Below, piece after piece: positions 3,359-28,312 of a stretch of DNA of 28,312 nt; position 1 is the stretch's first letter; every line of letters begins with the position of its first letter. Under the pieces are notes generated by a model. The model ran no database searches. It was not told the DNA's origin and saw only the letters and a list, made by a program, of their open reading frames with translations. Made by a program: the position numbers and the translations under genes. The stretch comes from a virus, in the IMG/VR virus record IMGVR_UViG_3300008267_010527, positions 1 to 28,312 of that record, one strand, 5' to 3'.

Positions 3359-3378
3359 TGGTTTTTGCAGTGACCAAC

Positions 3379-3700: not shown

Positions 3701-3705
3701 TCGTT

Positions 3706-10187: not shown

Positions 10188-11422
10188 TGCCGCCTGGTAT
10201 TTCCATAGTGTACGACAGTGACACCTGGCATGTCAAGTGGAATACAGCGCCACGGATCCACAATCACACTTCCGGGCCGGATGTCATAATAAAAATGATC
10301 AGCATGATCGCCAGTCACATTGCTGTATGTGACTGCACGATTGTGAGCCATCAAGACCACAGCTGGCCGATCAAAATTGTGCAACACATCCACAGTATCG
10401 TCGGCCAGAGGATCAATGTAGTAACAACGATGCCCTGTTTCAGCGACATAAAATCCCACCAAAGTGCTGTAACTGCCAATGCAGTAGGCCACATCGGGCT
10501 TGTAGGCCTTGCCGTGTATGACTATAGGCAAATTGTGTTTTTGTGCTTGTATGACCAAAAAATTTGCTAGGTTTTGGGCCTGGCATTCGCGTGCCTGCAT
10601 GATAGTATCAAACAGATCATAGCCAATGTCGTATTCTTCAGCCAACCAACGCAGGGCTATGTTATCACGAGGATGACATGCTCCAGCATCGCCCATGCCT
10701 GCGGTCATGTATTTGGGCCCCATGATGCGTTGTGTGCTGGCTGACAAAGCTGAAGTCACACAGTCCACATCGATATTGCCAATGCGTTGAGCAAAGTCCT
10801 GTATCATATTGACCAAACTCAGCTTGGCACTGATAAATGTGTTGTAAAAAATCTTGATACATTCGCACTCTTCCCAGGTGCCGGTTATGATTCTGGGACG
10901 GTTCTGCATCATGGGCTGATACACAGCCGCCAGTTCAGCGGCTACACCATCGTCTCTACCATCTTCGGTACCAATCATGATCATCTCAGGATTGACCATG
11001 TCCCACTTGACCGAGCCCATGGCTATGAGATAAGGATTGTACACAAAACTATGTTGTTCGTTCAGCAAGCCAGCCAACTGCTGTCTGCAGCTGCCAGGCA
11101 ATACTGTGCTGATAAGCACCACACGTTTGGCTGTGGTTGCATAGTGATTGATCTTGACCAAGGCCTGTTGTACTGCGTCATACAGGAAGTTCTTGGGCGG
11201 TAAATGACTGCTGGGCACACTGCCATCATACTCGGCCGCATGCGGAGTCGGTACTGCAATAAAAATCCAATCACTCAGTTGTACAACTTCCTGTAAGTCA
11301 CAAATTTCTATACTATCACTGGTCCTGGGTTCAATGTCGTAGCCACGTACTCGATAATGCTCGGCAAATACCTCGGCACAGTCCAGACCCAGTTTGCCTA
11401 GACCAATAAATCCAATGTTCAT
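10184..11422 (-). CDS. UDP-glucose/GDP-mannose-type dehydrogenase (full length)
   Basis: Oxidises a nucleotide sugar twice with NAD to the uronate. The 412-residue protein starts with a Rossmann fold (IGFIGLGKLG, 3-12). It has the substrate-side KIFYNTFIS (190-198, Lys190 and Asn194) and the catalytic cysteine in MGDAGACHPRDN (Cys249), a variant of GxGGxCxPKD. A C-terminal Rossmann-like domain follows (IVIHGKAYKPDV). The ATG at 11422 is chosen because it overlaps the queE stop by 4 nt; an upstream extension of 22 codons lies inside queE. It makes a uronic-acid donor for the glycan genes. A second, shorter member of the family is at 14340. Confidence 0.88.
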   Translation of the reverse strand: MNIGFIGLGKLGLDCAEVFAEHYRVRGYDIEPRTSDSIEICDLQEVVQLSDWIFIAVPTPHAAEYDGSVPSSHLPPKNFLYDAVQQALVKINHYATTAKRVVLISTVLPGSCRQQLAGLLNEQHSFVYNPYLIAMGSVKWDMVNPEMIMIGTEDGRDDGVAAELAAVYQPMMQNRPRIITGTWEECECIKIFYNTFISAKLSLVNMIQDFAQRIGNIDVDCVTSALSASTQRIMGPKYMTAGMGDAGACHPRDNIALRWLAEEYDIGYDLFDTIMQARECQAQNLANFLVIQAQKHNLPIVIHGKAYKPDVAYCIGSYSTLVGFYVAETGHRCYYIDPLADDTVDVLHNFDRPAVVLMAHNRAVTYSNVTGDHADHFYYDIRPGSVIVDPWRCIPLDMPGVTVVHYGNTRRQ

Positions 11423-12303
11423 TTGCCCCATCCGTTGCCCCAAAGGTCCACATGCAGTCTTGGACTGTAGTACCACCCCTGCTCGCAACAGATGTTGGCA
11501 ATACGCAACTTGTTACGGTCATAGGGCTCAACCACACCGCCTTGTGGCATCAAATAAATTACACCATCAAATCCAGCACGACGATATTCATCAGTGGCAC
11601 GTATGGCTTCTTCAATGTGAGCATCGGTTTCGACCACAAACTTCAAGTAGACCTGACCCCATTGTTGATAATCAACTACAACACTTGGAATAATTGCATC
11701 TTCCCACTTTTCGCCAGATGCACCAAGTTTGGCACTGACACTGAATGTGACTTCACGTCGTGGCAGTGTAAAAGGATCGCTGTCTTCGGTATTGCCATAC
11801 CAGCGGTCAAGATTGTCTTTGAAATCATCTGTCAGACGTTGGGTGCCATTGGTTTCAAAGGTAAGATTGCGCAGAGTTCGCATGCGCGGATGCAACAACA
11901 GTTCTCCATAGGCACGTTGCCAGCCCAACAAGGGTTCACCCCCAGTTATGACCAGGTGTACATCATTGCAGTTGTTTTGTATCCAGTCTTTGTTGGGTGT
12001 GAGTTCCAGCATCTTGTCCACCAATCGGTCTACTTCATAGTTAGGGCTTAGATGCTTGAATGCTGGATGCCAACTTGCATAACTGTCACAGCCGGTATCT
12101 ACCAGAGGTAGATTTTCAAATCTGTCGTACATGTGTACTACCTCAGCTACATCATCGGCACCTGAACTCTTTTCCCCCGGAGCACAACCAAACCCGCTAC
12201 AGGTAAAGTTGCAGCCATAGGTTCTCAAAAACACACTTGGGACACCTACAAAGCGACCTTCACCTTGTAAACTATAAAATACTTCACTGATTTTTATTTT
12301 CAT
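11419..12303 (-). CDS. queE: 7-carboxy-7-deazaguanine synthase QueE (radical SAM)
   Basis: Converts 6-carboxytetrahydropterin to 7-carboxy-7-deazaguanine, the third step of 7-deazaguanine synthesis. The N-terminus has the QueE signature FYSLQGEGRFVGVPSVFLRT (9-28). Cluster cysteines Cys31 and Cys35 (GCNFTC) are followed not by the usual CxxC but by an insertion of about 36 residues before TGCDSYASW (Cys72), which matches the canonical C-D-T/S-x-x-x-W. The SAM-binding ITGGEPLL (about 121-128) is intact. The ATG at 12303 is preferred: GAGAGG lies 6 nt upstream and it overlaps the upstream stop by 4 nt. Works with FolE (19459) and QueD (18218). Confidence 0.93.
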   Translation of the reverse strand: MKIKISEVFYSLQGEGRFVGVPSVFLRTYGCNFTCSGFGCAPGEKSSGADDVAEVVHMYDRFENLPLVDTGCDSYASWHPAFKHLSPNYEVDRLVDKMLELTPNKDWIQNNCNDVHLVITGGEPLLGWQRAYGELLLHPRMRTLRNLTFETNGTQRLTDDFKDNLDRWYGNTEDSDPFTLPRREVTFSVSAKLGASGEKWEDAIIPSVVVDYQQWGQVYLKFVVETDAHIEEAIRATDEYRRAGFDGVIYLMPQGGVVEPYDRNKLRIANICCEQGWYYSPRLHVDLWGNGWGK

Positions 12304-12875
12304 TCGCATCCTCTCGTGGCATATTCTGTACCGTGCAGTTTAAACCCATTTTGTAACAGCAATGGAATAGCAGTAGCACACTTACCAGTTAATTGATTCG
12401 TCTCATTATAATACGTATCATCCATGATTACAACTGATTGCTCATCTAAATATGGCAAACAATATTCTAATTGTAGTCGGTGTTCTTCTTGACAATTTTG
12501 ATTGTTCATTGTTACACCTCTTTGAGCATATGAATCAATTTGTCCTTGAATCCAGTCTGGAATATTTTCTGGCTCCCAGATCCAATCAAAGTTGTCAAGA
12601 TATAAAACTTTAATCTTTTTATTTAGGCCCGGTAACATATTTTTGCACCAATCACTTCCAGAACTTGTCACTATCCAGTTAATTTCTGGATGCTCTTGTT
12701 CTCTCTGACCGTGCTCAACATCAACGGAATAAAATTCTATATTGTGTTGTTTGGCCCACTCATACAACCACAAGGAACTGCCCTCTCCTCGTTCGCTACC
12801 AATTTCCAACGCAATGTTGTTTTGATCAACAGCAAGATTAAAATTTTCTAGTTTACTATAAGGTTTTGATCCCAT
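12300..12875 (-). CDS. Class I SAM methyltransferase-like protein
   Basis: LEIGSERGEGS (23-33) is a good motif I for SAM binding, VDVEH (51-55) is the acidic ribose-binding strand end, and VVIMDDTYYNE further on corresponds to the motif seen in Methyltransf_24-type proteins (VxxxDD). Length 191 aa. The substrate is unknown; it sits between a phosphoribosyltransferase and QueE, and its ATG directly abuts the upstream stop (TAAATG). It could act on a sugar or on a base. AT-richer than queE. Confidence 0.75.
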   Translation of the reverse strand: MGSKPYSKLENFNLAVDQNNIALEIGSERGEGSSLWLYEWAKQHNIEFYSVDVEHGQREQEHPEINWIVTSSGSDWCKNMLPGLNKKIKVLYLDNFDWIWEPENIPDWIQGQIDSYAQRGVTMNNQNCQEEHRLQLEYCLPYLDEQSVVIMDDTYYNETNQLTGKCATAIPLLLQNGFKLHGTEYATRGCE

Positions 12876-13406
12876 TTATTTCCACCAATCTTCCCAAGGA
12901 AATACAATCCATACCGGATCGTCTGATTTATTAATTGTTACAGCTGAATAATTTACATCCAATTTGCTTTTACTACTTTCGTTGTCGTACAAACAGGCCA
13001 CACGCACATTGTTGCCCCAGACTTCTTTCCAGCGCCGGTCTTTGGGGAAACAACTACTCATCCAGTCTTCGCGGATCCAGTTGAGGGTCGCTCCAGAATC
13101 ATTGATATCATCCACGATAAGAATGCGTTTCCTACCGTCATCGGATGTCATTGGATCAAAATCTCTGTGACCAAAAGCATCTTCGGCCATCCAAAGATTG
13201 CTTTCCTGCTCTGCACCATCACGTAGGCTTACTTTGAGACATTCCATTCTGCAACCGAGATATTGGCTGATCAGATTGGCCGGAACCAGACCGCCACGTG
13301 TGAGTCCTACCACATAGTCTGGACGCCAGGCGTCTATGTGTAGTTGTCGTAGAATTTCTTGCGTTTGGCATTCCACGTCCTGCCAAGTGTGATAGATTTT
13401 TTTCAT
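12876..13406 (-). CDS. Purine-type phosphoribosyltransferase
   Basis: Type I PRTase fold: VVGLTRGGLVPANLI (32-46) is the pyrophosphate loop region and RILIVDDINDSGATL (94-108) is the PRPP-binding motif. The family (Gpt/HPRT-like) joins a purine base to PRPP, making a nucleotide. In a phage making 7-deazaguanine bases, salvage of a (deaza)purine to a nucleotide is an attractive role but unproved. It starts a transcription unit: TTGCAA-17-TATAAT lies immediately upstream, only 5 nt before the ATG and without a Shine-Dalgarno. Confidence 0.85.
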   Translation of the reverse strand: MKKIYHTWQDVECQTQEILRQLHIDAWRPDYVVGLTRGGLVPANLISQYLGCRMECLKVSLRDGAEQESNLWMAEDAFGHRDFDPMTSDDGRKRILIVDDINDSGATLNWIREDWMSSCFPKDRRWKEVWGNNVRVACLYDNESSKSKLDVNYSAVTINKSDDPVWIVFPWEDWWK

Positions 13407-13411
13407 ACTTA

Positions 13412-13440
13412 ATTATACACTACTTGTGAAAAGATTGCAA
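13412..13440 (-). promoter_or_regulatory. Sigma70-type promoter before the phosphoribosyltransferase gene
   Basis: TTGCAA (13435-13440), 17 nt, perfect TATAAT (13412-13417) on the minus strand. The -10 box ends 5 nt before the ATG, so the message would be leaderless or nearly so. Confidence 0.6.
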
Positions 13441-14343
13441 CTATTTAGATCGATGTGCAACAATTTTGGTCATGCCTTCGGCAAAAGTCCTGGGTTGATA
13501 CTCGGGCCAAATTGTTCGTAGTTTGCTAATGTCAGGTCTGCGTGTGACCGTACTGCCGGGCAAGCCGGGTTTCAATGTCCACTTGGCCTCAGGGTGGCCC
13601 ATGGCCTTGGCAATGATATCAGCTGCATCTGGTATAGAAGTTTCTGCATCCGTGCCAATGTTGATCACTTGGCGTGTGGTATGATTGGCACAATAGATGG
13701 TGGCCGCGATACCATCTTCCACGTAACAAAAACTGCGAGTTTCATGGCTGCCGGTGACTTCGAACGTGCCCAAATCAATCTTGGCCATTTGATCAGCAAT
13801 AAAATGTCCAGCCTTGCTGTCCTCGCCATAGATGTTGAAATATCTGCAGATTACCCAGGGCAATTCGCTGTTGGTCAAATAGTTTTCGCTGGTGATTTTG
13901 GCCAGTCTATAACTCCAACGAGCATTGTGTATGTTCTTGACAACCACATCTGTGTTTTCTGGTGTAGGGCTTGTAGGATCGTCACTGACAATCTCACTGC
14001 TACTGGCATAGATCAATTTGTTCAGTTGTGTTTGTTGCTGTGCAAATTCAAATACTCGTACATCTGTGATAAAGTTGTTGGTCAAGACCTCGGTGGGACG
14101 TTCGTAAAAGTTCTTGGTACCGTTGATGGCTGCATAATGATAGATCTGATCAAAGTCTCGGGGCAATTGATCAAATGCTGTGGCCGACAACAGGTCTACT
14201 TTTGACCAAACATCACAGGGCGGAATTGTGGAACTACGGCTGTGATTATCTATGGCCCAGACTATATTGTCAACATCTTGCTTGAGTTGACGACAGATTT
14301 CTGTGCCCAACAGCCCACTTGCGCCAGTCACTAGTATTTTCAT
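13441..14343 (-). CDS. NAD-dependent epimerase/dehydratase (extended SDR)
   Basis: Extended SDR enzyme of 300 residues acting on a nucleotide sugar. The dinucleotide motif GASGLLG is at 7-13, the catalytic Ser is in YASSSEI (112-118), and the catalytic pair is Tyr145/Lys149 (SYRLAK). RYFNIYG further on is typical of sugar-nucleotide epimerases/dehydratases. The substrate cannot be read from sequence. It is the last gene of the coupled run that begins with queD and overlaps the preceding gene by 4 nt. A 34-nt gap with a promoter separates it from the next gene. Confidence 0.88.
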   Translation of the reverse strand: MKILVTGASGLLGTEICRQLKQDVDNIVWAIDNHSRSSTIPPCDVWSKVDLLSATAFDQLPRDFDQIYHYAAINGTKNFYERPTEVLTNNFITDVRVFEFAQQQTQLNKLIYASSSEIVSDDPTSPTPENTDVVVKNIHNARWSYRLAKITSENYLTNSELPWVICRYFNIYGEDSKAGHFIADQMAKIDLGTFEVTGSHETRSFCYVEDGIAATIYCANHTTRQVINIGTDAETSIPDAADIIAKAMGHPEAKWTLKPGLPGSTVTRRPDISKLRTIWPEYQPRTFAEGMTKIVAHRSK

Positions 14344-15113
14344 TTGTTGAATTTCTCGTTGTCGTTGATTACACTTTGAATTAGACCAACATCAATGTCC
14401 AGTCGCTTGATCAAATTGTTCCAGGCACTGGTATCCTTGGGCAAGCAGTGTCCGCCATAGCCACGTGTGTTTTTATTGGCCATCAAGTAGGCCTTGTTGA
14501 TACAATCACGTTTAGTTATAGCATTGTATACATTCATGTAGTTGGCACCCAACCGGTTGCACACTTCATAGGTGATGTTGGCAAATGTGACCTGCATGGC
14601 GTGATGCACATTGTTGAAATACTTGACCACTTCAGATTCAGTGGGACTCACACAAGACACCTGCTTGGGATAAGGACCGTGTATTTTTTTGATCGTTTCG
14701 TAGTCGGCTTCACGTGTGCTACCAATGATCAACAGATCATGATTGTGTATAAAGTCGGCTAACGCTGTCTTGGCACGCAAGAATTCTGGCACATTGCAGA
14801 TATGCAGTTTGGGAAACTCAGCACTGAGACGATCGGTAGTGCCAGGAATCACTGTGCTCTTGATAGCTATGAGTCCAGCATAGTCGGCTTGATCAAGCTG
14901 GCTGATGACCTGTTCTACGATACTGACATCACAGTCGCCATTGGGCAACTGATTGGTCGGCACACTGACAAACACCACGTCAGTGTTTAACACATCGGCC
15001 AATTCGCTTTCTGGATAGGCTGGATCAAAAAAGCTCATGTTGTGACCCAAATATTCCAGACCTTCATACACAGCGGATCCCACTGTGCCACGTCCTATGA
15101 TGCCAACTCTCAT
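14340..15113 (-). CDS. Short UDP-glucose/GDP-mannose dehydrogenase
   Basis: Rossmann motif GIIGRGTVG (4-12), PEFLRAKTA (109-117), KYFNN (164-168) and the catalytic cysteine in YGGHCLPKD (Cys223) are all present. At 257 residues it ends soon after the active site and lacks the C-terminal nucleotide-binding domain of the usual 390-450 residue enzymes. Either it is a compact phage form or it uses a partner for substrate binding; the reading frame itself shows no damage. It overlaps its neighbours by 4 nt on both sides. The full-length family member at 10184 keeps the C-terminal domain. Confidence 0.82.
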   Translation of the reverse strand: MRVGIIGRGTVGSAVYEGLEYLGHNMSFFDPAYPESELADVLNTDVVFVSVPTNQLPNGDCDVSIVEQVISQLDQADYAGLIAIKSTVIPGTTDRLSAEFPKLHICNVPEFLRAKTALADFIHNHDLLIIGSTREADYETIKKIHGPYPKQVSCVSPTESEVVKYFNNVHHAMQVTFANITYEVCNRLGANYMNVYNAITKRDCINKAYLMANKNTRGYGGHCLPKDTSAWNNLIKRLDIDVGLIQSVINDNEKFNK

Positions 15114-15526
15114 TTGTAATCTCCTGCAATGATTGATTCTACTCGGTATGTGTCGCTTTCGTAGTCCTCGCCACCTCTGGGACCTTCAGCAAAGGCAATG
15201 AATGTACAACCATGTTCACCTGCACGCATGGCATGTATTTCGTTGGGTTCGCTGATGATCATGTCGCCGTGTATGGCTGTGAACATGTGTGTTGGTTCAG
15301 CTGAATCTAGCGGTCGGCTGTAGTAGTTCAAACTGCCATTCAACACTAATGTATATTGTGTGGTCAATTTGTGATAGTGATTGCCACGCACAGCCTTGGG
15401 TGCGTTGGTTATGATGCAACCATGATTGATGGTGCGTGCATAGAACATGTCAGTGATGGTACCACGTTCATCGGTGAATTGTCCCAGGCCTCGTTCGGCA
15501 TTGTGATTGATATTGTAGTGTTTCAT
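15110..15526 (-). CDS. Cupin sugar isomerase-like (FdtA/WxcM type)
   Basis: Small single-domain cupin of 138 residues: FTDERGTITDMFYA (17-30) resembles the N-terminal strand of dTDP-sugar 3,4-ketoisomerases and RmlC-like proteins, and RGNHYHKLTTQYTLVLNGSL (47-66) is the cupin motif 1, with metal-ligand-type histidines His50 and His52. Role inferred: isomerisation or epimerisation of a 4-keto nucleotide sugar. It lies between the C-methyltransferase and the short dehydrogenase in one coupled operon, overlapping both. Confidence 0.75.
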   Translation of the reverse strand: MKHYNINHNAERGLGQFTDERGTITDMFYARTINHGCIITNAPKAVRGNHYHKLTTQYTLVLNGSLNYYSRPLDSAEPTHMFTAIHGDMIISEPNEIHAMRAGEHGCTFIAFAEGPRGGEDYESDTYRVESIIAGDYK

Positions 15527-16749
15527 AAGGAAAGAAATCTTGTGCGAGGATTGATATTTAGTATGACTTCACGCAGGGCTGAACTAATGTTCCAACTCAG
15601 CATGAGTGCGTAGGGATTTTCGTAACTAGCAAATTCTTCGTCGCTGACAATGGGTATGCGTGTGAGCGGAGTGTACTTGCCTTGCTTGTGACTGCTGGCA
15701 TCTGTGATACAACGGATCACTGTGGCATCAAGTCCATGCCAACGCAACCAAGTATTGGCCTTGGCAGCAGCACCCACACCAATTACCACAGCATTAGGTT
15801 CTTTTTCCAGCAGTTGATAAAAGCCACTCAGCCATTCAGCCCGTTGTCTTTGGAAGACACCCTGCAGGATCTGATAAAATTCTGGATTGAACAAGCCAAC
15901 CTGTGTTTCTCGTTGTATGGCCTCTTGTACTTTGGCTGGCATGTCAGCACCAGTGTCCAAGCGAGCAAACACTCGCAAACTGCCGCCATGATAATTGACC
16001 ACATCAAAATCTGTTATTTCGAGGCCAGCTTGTTTCAAAATATTCCAAGCACTTTTTATTGTAAAATAGGAGGGATGCTCGTGATAGACCATGTCAGTGA
16101 ATCGACCGCTTTCGATCATGCTCAACCAATAAGGCACTTCAAACACAAATATCCCAGTGGTACTCAGGACCTTGGACACAGCTCGGGCAAATGCCACAGG
16201 ATCGTTGGCATGATTGAACACATTGTTGGCCATGATCACATCAGCCAAGCCCATGCGTTGGGCTATGTCCTTGGCCACCGGCTCACAAAACAAGGCCGGC
16301 ATAACTTCTACACCGCGTTCTTTGGCAATACGACACATGTCCATGCTGGGATCAATACCGATGGCACGTGTACCATCTGCACGGAATTGATCAATCAAGT
16401 AGCCATCGTTGCTGCCAACTTCAATGGCCAACTTGATTGCACCCACACGAGATTGTACAGTGTTGGCGTACTCGTCCCAGTGGGTCCTGGCTGTTTGACT
16501 GTTGCTGGAAGTATAACTGTAATTGTAAAGACTGTAACGATCTTGTGCGTCACTGAGATATCTCAACTGTAACATGCCGCTGTCAGGATTCAACCAGACT
16601 TGCAAAGGAAACACCGGTTCACTGAGATGCAGTTGATCCGGTGCTATGAACGTGTCGGCATAGGCATGCTGGCCAAAATCCAAGACCTTGACCACTGGCT
16701 CACCGGTAATCAAGCAGGTTGTTATGAGTTGACTTTCAGTTATTTTCAT
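15523..16749 (-). CDS. Nucleotide-sugar C-methyltransferase
   Basis: The 408-residue protein has the three-part layout of NDP-hexose C-methyltransferases: an N-terminal small domain starting near Cys12, a central SAM domain with EVGSNDG (110-116) and GIDPS (131-135), and a C-terminal domain with a Rossmann-like VIGVGAAAKANTWL. The family signatures YHEHPSYFT (222-230) and YHGGSLR (253-259) are clear. These enzymes methylate carbon 3 of 4-keto-6-deoxy sugars. The N-terminal zinc cysteines are only partly kept. Together with the cupin and epimerase it indicates a branched or methylated deoxysugar. Confidence 0.88.
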   Translation of the reverse strand: MKITESQLITTCLITGEPVVKVLDFGQHAYADTFIAPDQLHLSEPVFPLQVWLNPDSGMLQLRYLSDAQDRYSLYNYSYTSSNSQTARTHWDEYANTVQSRVGAIKLAIEVGSNDGYLIDQFRADGTRAIGIDPSMDMCRIAKERGVEVMPALFCEPVAKDIAQRMGLADVIMANNVFNHANDPVAFARAVSKVLSTTGIFVFEVPYWLSMIESGRFTDMVYHEHPSYFTIKSAWNILKQAGLEITDFDVVNYHGGSLRVFARLDTGADMPAKVQEAIQRETQVGLFNPEFYQILQGVFQRQRAEWLSGFYQLLEKEPNAVVIGVGAAAKANTWLRWHGLDATVIRCITDASSHKQGKYTPLTRIPIVSDEEFASYENPYALMLSWNISSALREVILNINPRTRFLSL

Positions 16750-17603
16750 TGTTGTCTTACCATTTGTGGTTGGCCTGAGTCATCTAATGCTATTGCAAAT
16801 TGACCAGTTTGGCCATTGGGATCATTTTCTCTCATGCGTTGCCAAGGATCTTGTTTGCCAACCAAAACATTGTTGAAATAAGTCAGGTCCAGTTTCATCA
16901 GGTCCATATAGGCTGCCAATTTGCTTAGATCCGCTTGTCGCCATTGAGCAAAAGCAGTGTGATGAAAGTCTCGGGGATCGCTAGGGTTCCCTTCAAAATA
17001 CTGTTTGAGTTTGGCCGTTTCGTCGGCACTACGTCCGGTAAGGTCCGGGCGGTCGTGTGTTACATACACATCAATGATCTTCATGATGTCTAAAAAATAT
17101 GCCAGTTGACTGACCTCGGCATCCACCAACTGATGGCGGCTGAGATATCCTGTGATTTCACGCCATTCAGCTGGCATGATAGGAAAGATGCTGTAAGGAT
17201 GTTCGTTGTGCGCATGTACCTTTAACAGTCGAAATTCGCCTGTGCATTCTCTGATGCGTTGATCCCAATCGTGGGTTTCCATGATAGCATCATCACTCCA
17301 ACACATCAACCAATCTGCATCAGCATGGCCAGCTAACGTATCAAAGTAACGATTAAGCCCGGCATACCCCAAGGGCTCAAATTCAACGGCCATGTAATTG
17401 GCATTGACTTCATCCAATCTAGGCTGGATCACTGTGGTAAAATGTTTCTGGCCTATCAAATCATTGTTGTCAATGCCAATCAGGAACTGTATACTGTCAA
17501 GATCCTTGGCCAGATCCAATAGACCGAACACGCTGGCACTGAGACCATCAGTGCGTTTGTGTGTAGGCAATAATACTGCTATGTTGTATTCACGTTTTTT
17601 CAT
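16746..17603 (-). CDS. Glycosyltransferase, GT-A (family 2-like)
   Basis: IAVLLPTHKRTDGL (8-21) is the first strand of a GT-A fold, GIDNNDL (43-49) follows, and WLMCWSDDAIM (98-108) holds the DxD-equivalent SDD (103-105) that binds the metal-nucleotide sugar. The C-terminal half (about 130-285) is not recognised. It presumably transfers one of the sugars made by the neighbouring enzymes; acceptor unknown. It starts 14 nt inside the end of the SDR gene and overlaps the C-methyltransferase gene by 4 nt. Confidence 0.82.
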   Translation of the reverse strand: MKKREYNIAVLLPTHKRTDGLSASVFGLLDLAKDLDSIQFLIGIDNNDLIGQKHFTTVIQPRLDEVNANYMAVEFEPLGYAGLNRYFDTLAGHADADWLMCWSDDAIMETHDWDQRIRECTGEFRLLKVHAHNEHPYSIFPIMPAEWREITGYLSRHQLVDAEVSQLAYFLDIMKIIDVYVTHDRPDLTGRSADETAKLKQYFEGNPSDPRDFHHTAFAQWRQADLSKLAAYMDLMKLDLTYFNNVLVGKQDPWQRMRENDPNGQTGQFAIALDDSGQPQMVRQQ

Positions 17604-18228
17604 TGGGCACTAGAGTGATTTGTGTTAATTTGTTTTGCACAGCAGTTTCTATGACCTTGGCCACATCATCGGCCTCCAGACTGAGAGATTGTGCATATAT
17701 CTGTTCGATCTCCTGATCAGTCTTGGCGCCTTGATAGTTTTGTTTCAGCATGTTGGTCTTGATTTTGCCAGGACAGATTTCTGTAAACAAAATTTCAGGA
17801 AATTCACGTCTCAAGGTCTGCATGCTGTATCGCAGGGCGGCCTTGCTGGCAGTGTAAAAAATATTTAGGGCTATAGGATCTTCGATATTGTAACTGGTCA
17901 CAAACACAAATTGACCCTGTGATCGTTGTTTCACATACTGTTTGGCCAACAACAGGGCACCTGTAAAGTTTACTGAGACCTGCTGACTTTGATTTTCACA
18001 GGTGTTATTAAGCCATCCTAGATAGGCTCCAGCATTGGCACCAGCACAGTTTATGACCACATCATATTGGCCAAGATCGTATTGATCAATCTGTTCAAAG
18101 TTGCCAAGATCCAGTTCGGCACGAGCAGGAGCATACACTCGATTTTGATCGCTTAACCTACGTATCACAGCTTGGCCAACTCCACTGCTTCCACCTGTGA
18201 CTAGGATCTTCAAAGAATTATGCTTCAT
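17590..18228 (-). CDS. Short-chain dehydrogenase/reductase
   Basis: Classical SDR of 212 residues: TGGSSGVG (11-18) binds NAD(P), NCAG is at 60-63, and the catalytic triad is Ser112, Tyr125 and Lys129 (YTASK). The ATG at 18228 is chosen because the start then sits at residue 6 before the first strand and overlaps the queD stop by only 11 nt; upstream in-frame starts lie inside queD. The substrate is unknown; in this operon a keto sugar is likely. Confidence 0.85.
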   Translation of the reverse strand: MKHNSLKILVTGGSSGVGQAVIRRLSDQNRVYAPARAELDLGNFEQIDQYDLGQYDVVINCAGANAGAYLGWLNNTCENQSQQVSVNFTGALLLAKQYVKQRSQGQFVFVTSYNIEDPIALNIFYTASKAALRYSMQTLRREFPEILFTEICPGKIKTNMLKQNYQGAKTDQEIEQIYAQSLSLEADDVAKVIETAVQNKLTQITLVPNEKT

Positions 18229-18667
18229 AGACTGCACTGTTGGCTCCATGTTCGGCACATTCAACTCTGACGCAATAGCAACGATTGTTGGTCTTTATCT
18301 TGATCAGTTGATCTGCAAAGTTGAAAGCATGTTCGGCAAACTTTTCTGCACCCACACCTTCGAACATTCTGATCTCTGCCAGGCCCAGGGCTTGTAATTC
18401 TTCAAACTTGGACAAATAAGGATCTGCATGATCCAAGGCCAATTTGTGATCAAAGTGATCTTCCAGCCATGCTTTTAGTTCTTTGAGACTACCAAAGTCC
18501 ACGGCCCAATTTTTATTGTCTAATTGATCACAACCAAATGTGAATGTAAATGCCAGGCTGTATCCATGCAACAGATGACAGTGACTGTGATCGGCATTGG
18601 GTTGTCGAAATACTGCTGAAAGACCAATGTTGTGTCCGTAGTGTTTTGTTGAGTAATACTTTGCCAT
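18218..18667 (-). CDS. queD: 6-carboxytetrahydropterin synthase QueD (PTPS family)
   Basis: Makes 6-carboxy-5,6,7,8-tetrahydropterin from 7,8-dihydroneopterin triphosphate, the product of FolE. The catalytic region reads DHSHCHLLHGYSL (26-38): Cys30 is the catalytic cysteine and His34 one zinc ligand. The next ligand of the usual HGH is Tyr36, a departure from the family pattern. VDFGSLKELK (56-65) and the C-terminal VRVECAEHGANSAVY (133-147) fit PTPS proteins. Length 149 aa. AGGAG stands 8 nt before the ATG and a good promoter lies just upstream. First gene of the sugar operon that runs to 13441. Confidence 0.88.
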   Translation of the reverse strand: MAKYYSTKHYGHNIGLSAVFRQPNADHSHCHLLHGYSLAFTFTFGCDQLDNKNWAVDFGSLKELKAWLEDHFDHKLALDHADPYLSKFEELQALGLAEIRMFEGVGAEKFAEHAFNFADQLIKIKTNNRCYCVRVECAEHGANSAVYEA

Positions 18668-18686
18668 TGTTATTCTCCTATGTTAG

Positions 18687-18715
18687 ATTATAGCATAGGC
18701 GGCAGAATTTGTCTA
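18687..18715 (-). promoter_or_regulatory. Sigma70-type promoter of queD and sugar operon
   Basis: TAGACA (18710-18715), 17 nt, TATAAT (18687-18692), preceded by TGC as an extended -10, on the minus strand. It overlaps the tail of the damaged HIT reading frame. Confidence 0.75.
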
Positions 18716-19044
18716 GCGGGATGACGCCATAAGACCGCTGTAATACTATTTACGATAGTTACCTTTGCCGGGTATGGATACATCACCGTTTGGCCAGCGG
18801 CCTCACCTGAATTGTAACCAATGTTAAATCCATCACACAGACCTTCGTGTACCATAGCGTTGCCGTCGGCCAAGGCATCTTCCATAGCCCGGGCTATGTG
18901 ATTGGGATGGTCATCCTTGGGAACATACAATCTGTGACCTGGTGTACAGGGATAACGATCCAGAAAGACTATTGTATCAGATTTTACTTCTACTACATTG
19001 TCCCATGGTGCTATGCCCGCGGCTTGTGCTTCACGCAAGTTCAT
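18688..19044 (-). pseudogene. HIT-family protein with internal deletion and frameshift
   Basis: The first 90 residues look like an intact HIT (nucleotide hydrolase/transferase) domain: VVFLDR-type strand, YPCTPGHRLYVPK (31-43) and NIGYNSGEAAGQTVMYP (74-90). The catalytic HxHxH and the following IPR segment are absent. After MYP the frame continues as unrelated sequence to 18688, while another frame immediately reads IPGKGNYRK-stop (ending near 18742), the usual C-terminal end of HIT proteins. The simplest reading is a deletion of roughly 60-70 bp, not a multiple of three, that removed the active site. It could be a real pseudogene or an assembly fault. It starts 14 nt inside the glycosylase gene. 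Confidence 0.7.
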
Positions 19045-19462
19045 AAATTTCCTCTTTGAGATAACGAATCAGTTCTTTGTCTGTGGGTGTTACTCGGTAA
19101 TTGTTCTTGAAGAAGATTTCATAACTGTCCGACCCGTATTTTCCAATACCATACAGTTTGTCAGCTTGGTTGCCATCCCATTCTTCAAAATCCAGGGTCA
19201 TTTGTGTGAGCCGATCATAGCGACGATTGACCATGCCCAGACTCCAGATCACATCACGCACCTCGTCTGGAGTGGCCTGCAGGAATGAGTAAGGTGTAGG
19301 CCATTTACTCCAAAACACAGGTGCCACAGTCTTGACAGGTTTACGGCCTGTTTGGTTCAGCATGATCACAGCGGTCATGTGTTGCCAGGCCGCATTAACC
19401 CCCTCCAAGCCATCGGGCAACTGCTGTTGCACCATGAGATCATCGCGGAGTGGTTGGATCAT
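19031..19462 (-). CDS. MBD4-like HhH-GPD DNA glycosylase
   Basis: A 143-residue single-domain base-excision enzyme resembling the glycosylase domain of MBD4. MTAVIMLNQTG (29-39) matches the ATIFLNRTSG helix, PVFWSKWPTPYSFLQATPDEVRDV spans the next helices, LYGIGKYGSDSYEIF (103-117) is the helix-hairpin-helix, and VTPTDKELIRY (124-134) holds the catalytic Asp128. No iron-sulfur cysteines. MBD4 removes T or U from G mismatches; the phage substrate may be deaminated or damaged bases. Translated from the folE message (ATGA overlap), which links it to 7-deazaguanine synthesis. Confidence 0.85.
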   Translation of the reverse strand: MIQPLRDDLMVQQQLPDGLEGVNAAWQHMTAVIMLNQTGRKPVKTVAPVFWSKWPTPYSFLQATPDEVRDVIWSLGMVNRRYDRLTQMTLDFEEWDGNQADKLYGIGKYGSDSYEIFFKNNYRVTPTDKELIRYLKEEIYELA

Positions 19463-20292
19463 CTAGGAGCAAACTCTTGTTGCAGTTTGATATTGTCCAT
19501 GAAGTCTTTCTTGGTGCCAGGATCAGTACGGAATGCACCTTTGAGAACCGTGGTCTGGGTCAGGCTTGAGTGTGCCATGATGCCACGATTCTCACAGCAA
19601 CCGTGTGTGGCTTGGATATACACGCCAATGTTTTCGCTGTCAGTGGCTCGGGCAATCTCTCTAGCAATGTCGTTGGCTAGTTCTTCCTGGAGAGTGCCAC
19701 GCCTAGCGCACCACTGAGCAATACGAGTATACTTGCTAAGGCCAATAAGTTTGTTGGCAGCAATGATACCAATATAAGCCACCCCAGATACAGGCTGGTG
19801 ATGATGACTACACATACTACGCAATTCACTTCTAACAACCAACATTCCTTCATATCTGTCCTCACTATCGTTGGGAAAAGCAGTGGCATCGGGTCTGTGT
19901 TCATACCTACCTGCCATGATTTCATTGAAATACATCTTGGCCAGTCTATGTGCCGTGCCACGACTGTTGGGATCTGTTTCGCGATCAATCAACAGGCTGT
20001 CTAATACTTTTTCGAATGCCGCAGTGGCTTCGATGATCAACTGTTCACGCTCACGATCAGTTTTGATGAACTCACTGATGTTGTCGCCGGCCCAAAAACG
20101 TTTGCCACTAGCTCGCATGTTTTCTCTGATTACTTGGCTAAGTGGTCGACCTTGATCAACTACAGCATCTTCATAGCCGGGATGATATGGTGCTTCTGCC
20201 ACTATGCGGCTTTGTTTTAAGGTGTCAAATGTTTGTTGGCTGGCATTATTTTTCACTGCATTCTCTCTGTCTTCACTTGTAAATGTTGTCAT
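19459..20292 (-). CDS. folE: GTP cyclohydrolase I, FolE type
   Basis: Converts GTP to 7,8-dihydroneopterin triphosphate, the first step of both folate and 7-deazaguanine synthesis. Zinc ligands Cys161, His164 and Cys232 (MCSHHHQP, HGCCENRG) have the same spacing as Cys110/His113/Cys181 of E. coli FolE. GIIAANKLIGLSKYTRI is the conserved core. At 277 residues it carries about 50 extra N-terminal residues (rich in polar and charged amino acids) of unknown role. ATG at 20292 has AAAAGGAAA upstream; CTAAATA and TATAAT boxes stand before it. With queD and queE it supplies the deazaguanine pathway. Confidence 0.95.
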   Translation of the reverse strand: MTTFTSEDRENAVKNNASQQTFDTLKQSRIVAEAPYHPGYEDAVVDQGRPLSQVIRENMRASGKRFWAGDNISEFIKTDREREQLIIEATAAFEKVLDSLLIDRETDPNSRGTAHRLAKMYFNEIMAGRYEHRPDATAFPNDSEDRYEGMLVVRSELRSMCSHHHQPVSGVAYIGIIAANKLIGLSKYTRIAQWCARRGTLQEELANDIAREIARATDSENIGVYIQATHGCCENRGIMAHSSLTQTTVLKGAFRTDPGTKKDFMDNIKLQQEFAPR

Positions 20293-20303
20293 GGTTTCCT
20301 TTT

Positions 20304-20321
20304 ATTATACAGGTTATTTAG
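20304..20321 (-). promoter_or_regulatory. Promoter region of folE (CTAAATA plus TATAAT)
   Basis: CTAAATA (20315-20321) overlaps the upstream stop, followed by TGTATAAT (20304-20309) and a ribosome binding site. Either a late-type or an extended -10 promoter could start here; no clear -35 seen. Confidence 0.45.
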
Positions 20322-20905
20322 ATTTTTGCAAGATCAAATGGAATATTTCTCAAGTCTGGATAAACTCCGGGCTGTGCTTGTGGTTCATGATTGGACAACA
20401 AGTCCAACCCACGCCCACACAATTCCAGAGTAGGGCAGTAATGATAGCCCAGGATCAGTTCGGTTTCGTTCTGCCAGGGTATGTGTAGATCTCTTCCGTC
20501 ACTACGTTGGCGGCTGAACTTGCGGTAGGCTTCTGGGTCGTCCAACAGGATAGCACCTACCTTGCCCAACTGCATGGGTTTGGTCCAGCCAAAACTCAAA
20601 CACTGAAACTGTCCAGGTCTATACATGCCAGGTTGTAATCTACGGGCCGAATCCCAAATTCTAGTATTGCCAAATTGATACTCACCTGTCCAGATCTCAT
20701 CAGTGAATGCAAACTTGATGCCCAGGTGACGCATGAGCATGGGCACACTGAGATAGGTGTAGGCTGTAAAACTGGTTTGTCTCACAGCATCATATCTAAA
20801 GCAAAGTTCCAAGGCATGGGTGCAACCATCTGTGACCACCACATACGGAGCTCCGGTGTATTCAGCCAAGGCGGCCTCAAAGTCAAACAAGGCTCGGAAA
20901 CTCAC
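20318..20905 (-). CDS. Short DegT/DnrJ/EryC1-type aminotransferase
   Basis: PLP-dependent sugar aminotransferase fold. AEYTGAPYVVVTDGCTHALE (14-33) matches the N-terminal signature, IWDSARRLQPG (about 83-93) the cofactor Asp segment, and LSFGWTKPMQLGKVGAI (about 103-119) the Schiff-base lysine segment (SFhxTKxxxxGxGG). At 195 residues it lacks the C-terminal small domain of the usual 370-residue enzymes. It starts with GTG overlapping the amidinotransferase stop by 4 nt, so the two proteins are made together; a product with an amino group is the expected substrate of an amidinotransferase. Confidence 0.8.
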   Translation of the reverse strand: MSFRALFDFEAALAEYTGAPYVVVTDGCTHALELCFRYDAVRQTSFTAYTYLSVPMLMRHLGIKFAFTDEIWTGEYQFGNTRIWDSARRLQPGMYRPGQFQCLSFGWTKPMQLGKVGAILLDDPEAYRKFSRQRSDGRDLHIPWQNETELILGYHYCPTLELCGRGLDLLSNHEPQAQPGVYPDLRNIPFDLAKI

Positions 20906-22065
20906 AGTGACCTTTCTGGAAAATACGTATTCATGTTGCCAGATCTGTATAGATCAGCGGTAAGACAATGTATGCCACCGTCCCAAAAAAACTTGTGTCT
21001 AAAAGGAACTACATGAACTGTGATATCAAATTTATCTAATGCAGCAACTATCTGTTTGTTATAAGTGAACATCAATACATTTTTAGGATCAATGATCAAC
21101 ATGTTGACATCAAATATAGTTTCTTCTACATTGCCAGTCCAATGCTTTAGATTTGTTTCTACTAGATTGATTAGATCATCATCGTGTTCAAACCCAGGAA
21201 TCCACCAACGTCCTTGATTTTTATTTTTGAGTTGTGTGTATTGATCAAGCAGGTCTTGATTCATAGGCAACAACTGAACTACTTCCCAATCTGGATAAAT
21301 TTTACTGTAGTCATCAAGATATGGGGAACTTATAATCAATCCTGGACACACTGCACAATATACTCCGTCACTGTGTCCCTGAGTGTTGACAATGTGATTT
21401 CTAGTATTAACAAACTCTTGATCCAGTAGTTGTTGAAATTGAGTTAGATCTCTTTCGTAGGGATCAGTACCAAAATAACAATCTTTTCCAAGTTGAGTCA
21501 CTTGCGCCCCATTGACAAGATCATGAAAATTGTATTTGATTTGATTACCTTGAGACTCAATGCGATTTAAAATATGCTGGTAGCAATCTTTGACATGCAA
21601 TGGAACAATGGTGTTTTGATACTGATCAAATTTGTGTACAATAACACACTCGTTTTTAATCTCTGCTGGTAGTGCTTCAAACTCGGCCCAGGAAGTGCAG
21701 TCTGGCCAACTAGAGTCTCGAACATCCTTGTACATCTGTGCAATGTCTGCAGGATAATTTTCGTATTCGTTGAAATAGAATTTGTCACCAATCATGGCCA
21801 TGTAATCGCGTGGCGACATTGGTGGCTTGACATATTTGCCATCGACAAATTGGCACGCAGGCAAATCAGGGCGCAACACCTCTACTCCAAAACTTTGTAG
21901 TTTGGAAATTAAAAGTTGATAATCCTGTTCGGTTTCTTGGGCAATTGTTTCAAACAGATTGCGTACCCGAGGTTTGGTGATCCAACTATAAAATTCAGGA
22001 GGATAACTGCGGCCTACCACACACACTTGCAAAGGATCCCAGTGTTGATAGACCGACCATGTCAT
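20902..22065 (-). CDS. Amidinotransferase (glycine/inosamine amidinotransferase family)
   Basis: 387 residues, the size of arginine:glycine amidinotransferase (AGAT) and of StrB from streptomycin synthesis. The C-terminal DGGIHCLTADLYRSG (362-376) matches the catalytic GFHCWTCDVRRRG of AGAT with Cys367 as nucleophile. GHSDGVYC in the middle supplies His and Asp in the expected place, and MSPRDYMAMIGD is a family-like N-terminal motif. It would move an amidino group from arginine to an amine. Coupled to the DegT aminotransferase (20318) and to galE by 4-nt overlaps. Confidence 0.88.
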   Translation of the reverse strand: MTWSVYQHWDPLQVCVVGRSYPPEFYSWITKPRVRNLFETIAQETEQDYQLLISKLQSFGVEVLRPDLPACQFVDGKYVKPPMSPRDYMAMIGDKFYFNEYENYPADIAQMYKDVRDSSWPDCTSWAEFEALPAEIKNECVIVHKFDQYQNTIVPLHVKDCYQHILNRIESQGNQIKYNFHDLVNGAQVTQLGKDCYFGTDPYERDLTQFQQLLDQEFVNTRNHIVNTQGHSDGVYCAVCPGLIISSPYLDDYSKIYPDWEVVQLLPMNQDLLDQYTQLKNKNQGRWWIPGFEHDDDLINLVETNLKHWTGNVEETIFDVNMLIIDPKNVLMFTYNKQIVAALDKFDITVHVVPFRHKFFWDGGIHCLTADLYRSGNMNTYFPERSL

Positions 22066-23012
22066 TGATTATACCATGTCCAGGCATGACCAATCATGTC
22101 TTCTAGACTAAAATGCGGTTTCCATCCACTGACAGACATAAACTTGCCGGCATCAGCTGTGAGCATGGCTGGATCTCCTTCCCTGCGCGGACCTACATTG
22201 TATTCCAAATCTTTATGCGTGATTTTGATAGCACCATGTATGATTTGTAAATTGCTGTAGCCTTGATTGGTGCCCAAATTATAAACATCTGCTGGAATAG
22301 ATGCACCCATGGCCAAGACATGTGCTTCGGCTAGGTCTTCCACATGTATGTAATCTCGCACACAGGTTCCATCTTCGGTTTCAAAATCTGTACCATTGAG
22401 CACAAATGCACCGGTATTGTCTCTGATGGCCTCCAATACTCGTGCAATGATATGCGTGGTACCCGGCGCTTGTCCATGCCGTCCTTGGCTGTCTGCACCA
22501 CAGGCATTGAAATATCTAAAACTCACAAAATCCAGCCCATAAGCACGACGATATGATTTTAACAACCACTCAACCATCAGCTTGCTTTCACCATAAGGAC
22601 TGATGGGTTCGGTGGGATCAACTTCTTGACAAGGAGTCATTATAGGACTCCCGTAAGTGGCTGCCGAACTTGAAAAGATCAATCGAGGACGCGGTTCAAA
22701 TTTCAACAAGGCGTCACAAAGACGTTTGGTCTTGACAAAATTATTGTTGTAATAGTCTTCAGGATCGATCATGCTGGGGCCAACAAGACTGGTACCGGCA
22801 CAGTGTATCACAGCATCGGGTCTAAATTGTTCCATGGCCTGCAAGGCTATGTCGCCAGCAAAATCGCCAATCAACCATTTGGCGCCCGAATGCTCCAGAT
22901 GATCTGGAGCCTGTACACGATCAACCGCAAACACACTGTGGCCTTGATCCAACAATTTTAATACAGTTTGTCCGCCGATGTATCCGGCGCCGCCAGTGAC
23001 TATGACTCTCAT
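22062..23012 (-). CDS. galE: UDP-glucose 4-epimerase-like enzyme
   Basis: Extended SDR of the GalE type, which interconverts UDP-glucose and UDP-galactose (or the N-acetyl forms). GGAGYIGG is at 7-14, SSSAATYG (114-121) carries the catalytic Ser/Thr, Tyr140/Lys144 (SPYGESK) the catalytic pair, and RYFNACGAD plus DGTCVRDYIHVEDLA are GalE hallmarks. 316 residues, slightly shorter than the E. coli enzyme. Substrate specificity cannot be read by eye. Overlaps both neighbours by 4 nt. Confidence 0.9.
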   Translation of the reverse strand: MRVIVTGGAGYIGGQTVLKLLDQGHSVFAVDRVQAPDHLEHSGAKWLIGDFAGDIALQAMEQFRPDAVIHCAGTSLVGPSMIDPEDYYNNNFVKTKRLCDALLKFEPRPRLIFSSSAATYGSPIMTPCQEVDPTEPISPYGESKLMVEWLLKSYRRAYGLDFVSFRYFNACGADSQGRHGQAPGTTHIIARVLEAIRDNTGAFVLNGTDFETEDGTCVRDYIHVEDLAEAHVLAMGASIPADVYNLGTNQGYSNLQIIHGAIKITHKDLEYNVGPRREGDPAMLTADAGKFMSVSGWKPHFSLEDMIGHAWTWYNQ

Positions 23013-24214
23013 GATTCAACCTTTACCACCGGATACTTGGCATGGACCACATGGTCTCTGTAGCGATTGCCACTGCGATTCCAGATTTCTCCACGCCCAC
23101 TTAAGATTTCACATATACGATCAATGGTTCCATGATTCCACTCACTGATCAGGCCCATGTTGTGATGTGGTCGTTCCAACAATGCATACAGCTTGTGTTC
23201 AGCATCATCAATGCTCCAAGGCACATACAGTCGATCGGGATCATTGGCAAAGGTTTCAGGAAAACTGCGATAAGCTGGATATAACACATTGGCACCCAGG
23301 GTGTCTGCTTCGCTGACTGTGTTGCTTACCCAGTCCTGCAAGGCACAGTTGAACAAAACTCGAGTATCGTTCAACAATTCATAATAACGATTTTTATTCA
23401 AATTTTCGTAGATTTCCAAATAGCCTTTGTGTTGCAACTGTCTTGCACGTTCCACATATTCGGGATTGTTACTACGCAGTGGCCCACCCTGGAACACCGC
23501 AAAAGAAATGTTTCGGCCGTTCGGTTGTGATTTAATTTTTTCAACCAAATCCATAAAGAAACCAGGTTGTTTCTCTTGATCAAAGCGTGCGGCAAATCCC
23601 ACACGCATTTTTCTATCAGCAAATAGGCGTATGTTTTCTGCACCACCAATACGTTCCAGCACTTCGGTTTTGCCAAATGCCAGGCCACTGATATTGTAGA
23701 TTGGAGCCGACCATCCTGCAATACGCATGTGTGCTACCATCTCTTCATTGGTGGCCAATACACCAGTCACAAACTCATTGACCATTTTTTCATACAAGTC
23801 CATCCATTTGGCCATGCCCCATACATGCACAAAATCATCTGGATCAATAGCCTGTGCAAGACAACGCACCCAGACTTTTGGACGTCGATAATCTTCGATC
23901 TGGTCCATGATGTAGGGCAAGCTCTCGATGCCAGGCTGGAACATGTCTTCAAAATACACAACGTCTTCGCCGGTGACATCGCCATTACGCATCATCTGCA
24001 CCAGATTCATCATCTGGCTCATGGCAAAGTAACTGCGTCCATGTGCATCTAGTACCTGTCCTACACTGATGCTCTGTGAATTGTCAATGGTAGAACCTGG
24101 CACATAGATCACTTCGATACCACGGCGCTCAAATACACGCCGGTTCCATTCAGTTAGTTGTAGGGTGTAACGGGCTTCATATGATTCGAGACCCATGTAG
24201 AACAACTTTCTCAT
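23009..24214 (-). CDS. Glycosyltransferase, GT-B fold, phage type
   Basis: A 401-residue protein: the N-terminal half is helical around aromatic-rich WVRCLAQAIDPDDFVHVWGM, then RMVGFAARFDQEKQ-like residues (MRVGFAARFDQEKQPGFFMD) start the C-terminal Rossmann domain, and DWVSNTVSEADTLGANVLYP matches the E-x-x-x-x-G-x nucleotide-sugar-binding region of GT-B (GT4-like) enzymes. Sugar and acceptor unknown. Coupled by 4-nt overlaps to galE downstream and the SGNH gene upstream. Confidence 0.78.
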   Translation of the reverse strand: MRKLFYMGLESYEARYTLQLTEWNRRVFERRGIEVIYVPGSTIDNSQSISVGQVLDAHGRSYFAMSQMMNLVQMMRNGDVTGEDVVYFEDMFQPGIESLPYIMDQIEDYRRPKVWVRCLAQAIDPDDFVHVWGMAKWMDLYEKMVNEFVTGVLATNEEMVAHMRIAGWSAPIYNISGLAFGKTEVLERIGGAENIRLFADRKMRVGFAARFDQEKQPGFFMDLVEKIKSQPNGRNISFAVFQGGPLRSNNPEYVERARQLQHKGYLEIYENLNKNRYYELLNDTRVLFNCALQDWVSNTVSEADTLGANVLYPAYRSFPETFANDPDRLYVPWSIDDAEHKLYALLERPHHNMGLISEWNHGTIDRICEILSGRGEIWNRSGNRYRDHVVHAKYPVVKVES

Positions 24215-26710: not shown

Positions 26711-26934
26711 TCCGAATCTCTCATTTCACGAATCCACTCGTCCACACGTGTCTCGGCTTCGGCTTGACTCATAGCCGGCACAGTGATCAGATATGGTCGG
26801 CCAGGTCTGTGGCGGATGTCATAGCGTATGGTCCCGTTGAGGATCATGTCGTTTTCATCACGCAACACTGTGAACTCTTGCAAGTTCTGGGCGCGGTAAA
26901 TGGCTCGTTCCGCTAGTACTCTAACATCATTCAT
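26707..26934 (-). CDS. Small phage protein of unknown function, 75 aa
   Basis: 75 residues, charged; a helix (AERAIYRAQNLQEF) followed by a short sheet (NGTIRYDIRHRPGRPYLITV) and a C-terminal helix (QAEAETRVDEWIREM). No known motif. Overlaps both neighbours by 4 nt. Function unknown. Confidence 0.72.
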   Translation of the reverse strand: MNDVRVLAERAIYRAQNLQEFTVLRDENDMILNGTIRYDIRHRPGRPYLITVPAMSQAEAETRVDEWIREMRDSE

Positions 26935-27446
26935 TTGATTACCTCATCTTTGGTATATTTAGACCAGTCAGTGAATTGACTGTGTTTTTGTAAATCATGT
27001 AAGCTGTGGCACCACACTCCGGGATTGGTAGCACGGAAGTCTCGATCATCCAGTTTGAGTGTGGCATTGTATCCAAACTGTCGGATGTAAGGTAGTTTGA
27101 CACTGATCATAGGAATAAAGTTATGATATTCTACCAAGAAACTTTCCAACAAGCCTTCTGCTTGGGTAACATCAAGATCTAGTGTGCAAAGACAATTGGC
27201 ATCAAGACATGGGCGAATCATACCTTCCCAACTTCTCCACCCTTCCCCATCATTGGTATCTAATTTAGGAAAACTCTGATTGGCACCAAAATAGATATGT
27301 TTGCAATCATTGGCTAGAGCTGTGTCCATAACAGTGTCAGCATCGTGTACACCCACCACAAACAAGGTGCGGAGACCATATGCTGGCGAGTGTTCTACTT
27401 CGGTTCCAATAAAGAAACTTACTGCTTCATGCCCTTGTCGGTTCAT
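26931..27446 (-). CDS. Conserved phage protein of unknown function, 171 aa
   Basis: Soluble alpha/beta protein. The N-terminus (MNRQGHEAVSFFIGTEVEHS) and GANQSFPKL, FIPMISVKLPY and NPGVW segments look strongly conserved, and I associate them with a protein widespread in marine T4-like phages; its role is not known to me. The ATG at 27446 is chosen because an upstream start would lie inside the DfrB-like gene. TTAAATA stands 8 nt before the ATG and there is no Shine-Dalgarno. The repeated beta-strand spacing hints at a TIM-barrel-like fold, unproved. Confidence 0.75.
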   Translation of the reverse strand: MNRQGHEAVSFFIGTEVEHSPAYGLRTLFVVGVHDADTVMDTALANDCKHIYFGANQSFPKLDTNDGEGWRSWEGMIRPCLDANCLCTLDLDVTQAEGLLESFLVEYHNFIPMISVKLPYIRQFGYNATLKLDDRDFRATNPGVWCHSLHDLQKHSQFTDWSKYTKDEVIK

Positions 27447-27454
27447 TTTGCTGT

Positions 27455-27461
27455 TATTTAA
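27455..27461 (-). promoter_or_regulatory. Late-promoter-like TTAAATA box
   Basis: TTAAATAA on the minus strand overlapping the stop of the DfrB-like gene, 8 nt before the ATG at 27446. Confidence 0.35.
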
Positions 27462-27646
27462 TTGGTGGGTGGGAGCCAAAGCTCAAGAGCTCGTGCTGGA
27501 TAGATTTGAACCGACCCCTTTTCAGTCCAGCTTTCAACAGCATAGCCTTCTGGGGTTAGTTCAGTACTGTAAGTGCCTACTACAGTTCCATGCCATTGAC
27601 TGCCAGAAACTTTTTTGACAGTGTCTCCAAGTTTGAATGTGTTCAT
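27458..27646 (-). CDS. dfrB: Type II (R67/DfrB-like) dihydrofolate reductase homolog
   Basis: DfrB enzymes are tiny SH3-like homotetramers that reduce dihydrofolate with NADPH and are insensitive to trimethoprim. The 62-residue protein aligns with R67 from [19 protein letters not shown] (6-24) through [10 protein letters not shown] (30-39) to [12 protein letters not shown] (44-55). The active-site residues of R67 (Lys32, Gln67, Ile68, Tyr69) are conserved as Lys12, Gln47, Ile48 and Tyr49, and Trp38 as Trp18. It lacks the disordered N-terminal 20 residues of R67. Translated from the upstream message through a 4-nt overlap. A generic SH3-like binding domain is the alternative, but the VQIY motif argues for reductase activity. 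Confidence 0.85.
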
Positions 27647-28312
27647 TGTGCTTGTTCATGTTCGAGTTGGTCTAATCGGGCCTGTTGGTCCGGGCTAAAG
27701 TCTTGTTCTAATTGTACACTATCTTCTGTGTTGTCGTCAACAGTTTCGAACAAAGCATTGAACTGGCTGTGTGCGTTTTTGGCTTTCTTGCCTTTGAATC
27801 CACGTGTGCCCACAATGTCCATCCAGTAACGGTCGTAGTGTTCAATTATGGCCATGGCCTCAGCTCGATTGGGTGTGGCAAATATAGCATCCACAATGTC
27901 CTTGAATCGGGCATGATCACCATTTTGATTCCACATCATGGCTGGCCACGAACCTGAATCATACTCACGGTTGGCACGTTGTACAGCTTCGATATGCATC
28001 CAAACATTGTGCCCCATCAGCAGGGCATAGCTGAAACTATCCCACGACGTCTTGCCTTCCTTGCCAATCTTGTTGAGATCACCGGGCTTGTAGATACAAA
28101 TGTCTTTCATCTGTAACTGTTGACTGATTGGACTTTCATCAAAGTGATTGATCAAACCGTCGGCAATCACAGCAGGCCCAAACTGGCGTGTGTCTGCGGC
28201 ATACTTCTTGTCGTCTACAATGGGGCTCATACGATAGCACCATTTGTCGTTGTGTGGCAAATCAATATGATGATAAACTTGACCGTTGGCTGTGGCCAAG
28301 AACGGACTGGCA
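27643..28312 (-). CDS. Conserved phage protein, N-terminus cut by window edge
   Basis: The reading frame is open through the right edge (the visible part begins [20 protein letters not shown]), so the start is outside the window. Residues [20 protein letters not shown] and [20 protein letters not shown] look like conserved structural segments, and the end is acidic and Gln-rich ([15 protein letters not shown]), probably disordered. I do not recognise a named domain. Its neighbour across the DfrB-like gene (26931) is also a conserved unknown, and the three may form one functional unit. Confidence 0.75.

Follow-up and report, generated by a model that had tools for sequence, protein, structure and literature searches.

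The window analyzed here, which is the whole 28,312-nucleotide stretch of the virus record IMGVR_UViG_3300008267_010527, carries within an operon on its minus strand a short open reading frame (27458-27646, ATG to TAA), whose 62-amino-acid product is assigned by sequence and predicted fold to the DfrB (R67-type, DHFR_2) family. We consider it likely that this stand-alone protein functions as an enzyme of the R67 type, which uses NADPH to reduce dihydrofolate-like substrates, and that it has an accessory place in phage operons for DNA precursors or DNA modification. DfrB enzymes are intrinsically insensitive to trimethoprim and the family is known for trimethoprim resistance. Their endogenous function was stated to be unknown in 2023 (PMC9835603), and a widespread stand-alone phage form, with invariant pore residues and with coupling to genes for 7-deazaguanine modification, thymidylate synthase (thyA), DNA ligase and DNA polymerase, is a testable clue to their natural role. 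It opens the questions whether DfrB is a pterin reductase, whether it affects phage DNA modification and whether phages were the source of the integron genes.

DfrBs of phages are already known. Four contigs of the Han River virome contain dfrB2-like ORFs (Moon 2020, PMC7265639), eight dfrB candidates were reported in lytic phages (PMC12466917), and DfrB-H3 of Pseudomonas phage PS-1 and DfrB-H4 of Vibrio phage 1.030.O were described in 2023 (PMC9835603). The genes of the first two reports likewise are DfrB-like genes in (freshwater) phage contigs; the accessible parts of both sources list them as possible resistance genes and do not describe neighborhood or role. What seems to be new is the stand-alone phage form, the coupling pattern and the anatomy of the insertion, not phage DfrBs as such.

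The 62-Residue Protein Is a Conserved Relative of R67

The protein clearly passed the curated cut-off of Pfam family PF06442 (DHFR_2; 77.8 bits, E 5.8e-22, cut-off 25), and R67 (1vie) is its top PDB sequence match (E 3.3e-17). An AlphaFold single-chain model (pLDDT 89) contains an SH3-like barrel that is superposable on R67, and the top Foldseek matches are all R67 structures (TM 0.85-0.94, rmsd 0.9 Å to 1vie). The preliminary description, which had proposed an R67-type enzyme in a phage genome and a structural comparison with R67, is therefore confirmed by the family match, the 1vie match and the fold of the single chain. It had also pointed to a retained active site, and the residues named there, Lys12, Trp18 and the VQIY motif (Val46-Gln47-Ile48-Tyr49), indeed correspond to K32, W38 and V66-Q67-I68-Y69 of R67.

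A comparison with the integron-borne enzymes DfrB1 (R67, 1vie) and DfrB2/3/4/10 revealed a common SH3-like fold, the common pore residues K32, W38 and VQIY, and 64-68% identity over the core. In contrast to these proteins, the window protein is only 62 amino acids long without the disordered N-terminus, has Thr at the position of W45 and Glu at that of H62, and is encoded in a phage operon instead of a cassette. Glu at this position is found in 67/81 homologues, and W45 has been reported to be dispensable (PMC9835603). With 86.9 bits the protein did not reach the cut-off of 137 of the NCBIfam model for integron DfrB resistance proteins (NF000331), and we therefore regard it as a family relative and not as a named resistance protein.

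The search for other phage DfrB-like proteins that had been suggested beforehand yielded relatives in 26 GenBank phage records and in 89 IMG/VR loci on contigs of up to 367 kb, the latter fetched by DfrB-derived patterns and thus a sample selected for DfrB. Together with the Pfam and R67 matches, these relatives exclude a chance open reading frame. Two further loci were found in genome_contigs, and these two make up the bacterial sampling. The first IMG/VR loci (L002-L054) mostly contain stand-alone forms of 59-67 amino acids, and in the following ones DfrB is largely a domain inside longer, multidomain proteins. In two of these (L060:5452-6063 and L064:4180-4791) the same ORF continues behind the DfrB domain with a C-terminal portion of MazG-like appearance by eye; Pfam gave DHFR_2 alone. 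Across 81 distinct homologues K32, W38, V66, Q67, Y69 and P70 are invariant and I68 is kept in 80. The stand-alone clade has a median dN/dS of 0.034 with dS near saturation, indicating strong purifying selection.

Catalysis by the window protein is very likely. NADPH-dependent, trimethoprim-insensitive reduction of dihydrofolate has been demonstrated for some DfrB homologues (PMC9835603). As in R67, four of the 62-residue barrels would form a central pore, in which the equivalents of Lys32, Gln67, Ile68 and Tyr69 would bind NADPH together with the pteridine, so that the hydride passes directly from one to the other. The exchange Y69L abolishes the activity of R67, and Y49 is the equivalent position in the window protein. 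Overexpression of DfrB-H4 in E. coli conferred full trimethoprim resistance, up to 600 µg/ml, and its activity in lysate was below detection (PMC9835603). DfrB-H4 and DfrB-H3 have the phage origin and the core in common with the window protein, and DfrB-H4 has the same 10-residue segment, but both are multidomain proteins (218 and 167 amino acids) of smaller phages, encoded near DNA methylase genes and not near a 7-deazaguanine set.

The frequent embedding of the DfrB domain in multidomain phage proteins counts against our preferred reading as an accessory reductase. It would fit a non-catalytic SH3-like tetramer that binds proteins of DNA metabolism or acts as their scaffold, with dihydrofolate reduction in the laboratory being incidental, and the authors of the 2023 study propose that the activity arose from a non-catalytic fold (PMC9835603). 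However, the residues K32, Q67 and Y69, which bind NADPH and dihydrofolate in the pore, do not vary in any of the 81 sequences, stand-alone ones included, a protein without further domains offers nothing for such a scaffold to bring together, and in one phage locus (L067) dfrB is coupled to thyA. We judge a purely structural role to be decidedly unlikely.

dfrB Is Inserted as a Single Gene Behind a DpdA-Like Gene

The start codon of dfrB overlaps the stop codon TGA of the preceding DpdA-like gene (ATGA, 27646-27643). The downstream neighbor on the same strand (26931-27446, minus) encodes a protein of 171 amino acids, and in many relatives without dfrB this gene follows dpdA directly, the matched ends being separated by about 1 nt. 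Two 12-nt near-repeats in direct orientation flank the inserted dfrB stretch of the window, an upstream copy at the insertion boundary (AGCACAATGAAC, 27641-27652, minus) and, 200 nt away, a downstream copy (AGCAAAATGAAC, 27441-27452, minus). dfrB is a clean one-gene presence/absence difference between the DpdA-like gene and its neighbor.

DpdA-like loci were fetched by tblastn regardless of dfrB, and the gene was present in 2/80 among the matches listed, from which known dfrB-bearing contigs were missing. A PF06442 scan of 35 larger dfrB-less records, run without a positive control, gave 0/35, in agreement with the tblastn count. That the dfrB state is in the minority among the relatives suggests a gain, and as most of them lack it, dfrB is accessory and not a core step of the modification pathway. 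The pathway running without DfrB in most relatives is also a point against our reading of DfrB as an accessory enzyme of such operons, as is the presence of other small genes at the dpdA junction in some of them.

In the loci L097-L176 the junction behind the DpdA-like gene is empty or contains dfrB or another small ORF (coiled-coil-like in L099), and this variable site appears to accommodate small accessory genes.

No integrase is present among the annotated genes of the window and no inverted repeats were found in the 500 nt examined around dfrB. Together with the ATGA overlap this bears out the earlier view that the gene is part of an operon and not of a cassette.

The Neighborhood Encodes a 7-Deazaguanine DNA-Modification Set

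The gene preceding dfrB (27643-28312, minus) is cut by the contig end, and its 3' part encodes the C-terminal 222 amino acids of a TGT/DpdA-like protein. Full-length relatives have 516-581 amino acids with an invariant GDSGGFQ motif, and for a model of these relatives (pLDDT 68) TGT/arcTGT structures were the only PDB matches at E<=0.001. As no TGT/DpdA family match was obtained in Pfam, NCBIfam or PHROGs, the name DpdA-like is based on the fold, the motif and the neighboring genes. Pseudomonas phage PA5oct and its relatives (H87-H97; 286-kb Pseudomonas jumbo phages) encode a "hypothetical protein" that shares about 35% identity with the DpdA-like protein, and these proteins are probably unannotated TGT-type transglycosylases.

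The window also encodes, all on the minus strand, a GTP cyclohydrolase I (FolE, 19459-20292; PF01227, E 1.6e-38), a QueD-like 6-pyruvoyl-tetrahydropterin/6-carboxytetrahydropterin synthase (18218-18667; PF01242, E 9.4e-15; phrog_2389, E 3.8e-39) and a QueE-like radical SAM protein of the 7-carboxy-7-deazaguanine synthase type (11419-12309; phrog_2076, E 7.2e-49), for which the NCBIfam QueE models gave E values down to 2.7e-10, below cut-off. QueC was not detected in the window and only one weak match occurred among 50 records, which are fragments. QueF was not found either, as the QueF matches proved to be FolE. For this reason DfrB was rejected as a QueF substitute, and to our knowledge R67 chemistry has no nitrile-reducing cysteine. 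The window has FolE, QueD, QueE and a DpdA-like protein with the TGT fold in common with the known phage systems for 7-deazaguanine DNA modification (DpdA/DpdA2, FolE, QueD, QueE, QueC; Hutinet 2019, PMC6884629). The window lineage differs from that set in the missing DpdA/TGT family match, in that QueC and QueF were not found and in the inserted accessory DfrB. The text of that study does not mention DHFR, and our literature search found nothing linking DfrB to 7-deazaguanine genes.

In 37/47 related loci dfrB directly adjoins the DpdA-like gene, folE, queD or queE, compared with 78/317 (25%) of the small ORFs other than dfrB at these loci. Small-gene families that often adjoin pathway genes mostly keep one partner, whereas dfrB has four, in at least three gene orders. 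Three separate placements would have a probability of 0.25 cubed, about 0.016, which is a rough value because the loci are related. In many related loci dfrB shares a 1-nt stop/start overlap with the FolE, QueD or DpdA-like gene, and in a 367-kb record it lies within 2.4 kb of folE. It is conceivable that DfrB acts within the 7-deazaguanine route as the reductase of a dihydropterin, for instance of oxidised 6-carboxy-tetrahydropterin, which it would re-reduce at the stage between QueD and QueE. In that case a pterin would be the natural substrate and dihydrofolate reduction a side activity. The four partners, the gene orders and the overlaps speak for such a function, as do the proximity to folE, the missing QueF and the single weak QueC match. 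However, most phages of the group run the pathway without DfrB, this linkage is not seen in the stretches inspected around relatives from other phages, and we know of no NADPH step that the FolE-QueD-QueE chemistry would require. We consider this specialized role unlikely. Under our preferred reading as a reductase of dihydrofolate-like substrates, DfrB of the window lineage would act within the FolE-QueD-QueE-DpdA set.

Coupling to DNA-Metabolism Genes in Other Phages

Overlaps of dfrB with genes of DNA metabolism also occur elsewhere. In L067, a distant phage, it overlaps the start of a thymidylate synthase gene (thyA; PF00303, E 8.8e-95), close to which a dCMP deaminase is encoded. In L065 it lies in a DNA-polymerase-A module and overlaps the end of the gene for an ATP-dependent DNA ligase, and in MW202697 it overlaps a DNA polymerase gene. 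A role of DfrB in DNA-precursor or DNA-modification metabolism is most likely. As an accessory gene, dfrB is inserted in phage operons for these functions and coupled to them in translation, and during infection its product may raise the supply of tetrahydrofolate and/or tetrahydropterin. In L067 the thyA-coupled DfrB would serve dTMP synthesis.

FolA and ThyX were absent from the 49 DfrB-bearing records and ThyA was present in 3/49, mostly fragments; that ThyA occurs in these three alone also weighs against the reductase reading. FolA and ThyA were likewise not found in the dfrB-less relatives, so a replacement of phage FolA by DfrB in the window lineage was discarded, as no displacement is seen. 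An association of DfrB with ThyA across records (3/49 vs. 0/35) was dismissed too, the cases being too few and mostly fragments. The expectation that the enzyme supports nucleotide synthesis fits the thyA-coupled relative L067, but is not supported for this phage: no thyA or folA was seen in the window, and the genes linked to dfrB are the 7-deazaguanine set.

Integron DfrBs and a Possible Phage Reservoir

In two trees built from 56-57 alignment columns, DfrB1/4/10 group with the phage-module copy of L065 (support 96/96 and 94/87), and owing to this small number of columns the grouping is suggestive only. Pseudomonas plasmids carry in their class 1 integrons an unnumbered DfrB that shares 76% of its residues with the window protein and 79% with the phage copy of L023; its placement was unstable, and the pTmex position shifted between the trees. 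A single clade of integron DfrBs is neither supported nor rejected (p-AU 0.19). The genes of this unnumbered DfrB (L177:6001-6162, L178:4974-5177) lie on the strand opposite to the adjoining cassette genes and their products are nearer to phage DfrBs than to DfrB1-4.

The grouping of DfrB1-type enzymes with a copy from a phage makes a phage reservoir plausible. The proposal of an environmental reservoir made in the preliminary description agrees with this grouping and with the 76-79% identity, which leave the direction of transfer undecided. DfrB may have evolved, or may persist, in phages as a dihydropterin/dihydrofolate reductase for base-modification and precursor operons, and integrons may have captured it from such phages at least twice (DfrB1-type and unnumbered Pseudomonas form); we regard this scenario as rather unlikely.

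The reverse route, an integron origin of the window gene, was rejected, as there is no cassette and the identity to DfrB1-4 is 64-68%. The sequence family itself would be in line with a trimethoprim-resistance gene that the phage took from integrons and that is selected as such. This is highly improbable given the same level of identity, the deep diversity of the phage copies, the strong purifying selection with nearly saturated synonymous sites, the lack of cassette features and the location of the copies next to replication and modification genes.

Other Features of the Window

A permuted tmRNA gene is located at 3353-3731 on the minus strand (tag GDDYANASNDEVFALAA; Rfam beta_tmRNA 111.8 bits, tmRNA_permuted 95.2 bits), and five tRNAs are found besides it within the first 4.2 kb. 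This suggests a betaproteobacterial host or origin. Across the region 10184-24214, genes for sugar-nucleotide enzymes and methyltransferases follow one another in a long series, including UDP-glucose/GDP-mannose dehydrogenases, epimerases, a C-methyltransferase and a DegT aminotransferase, which possibly function in glycan or surface synthesis.
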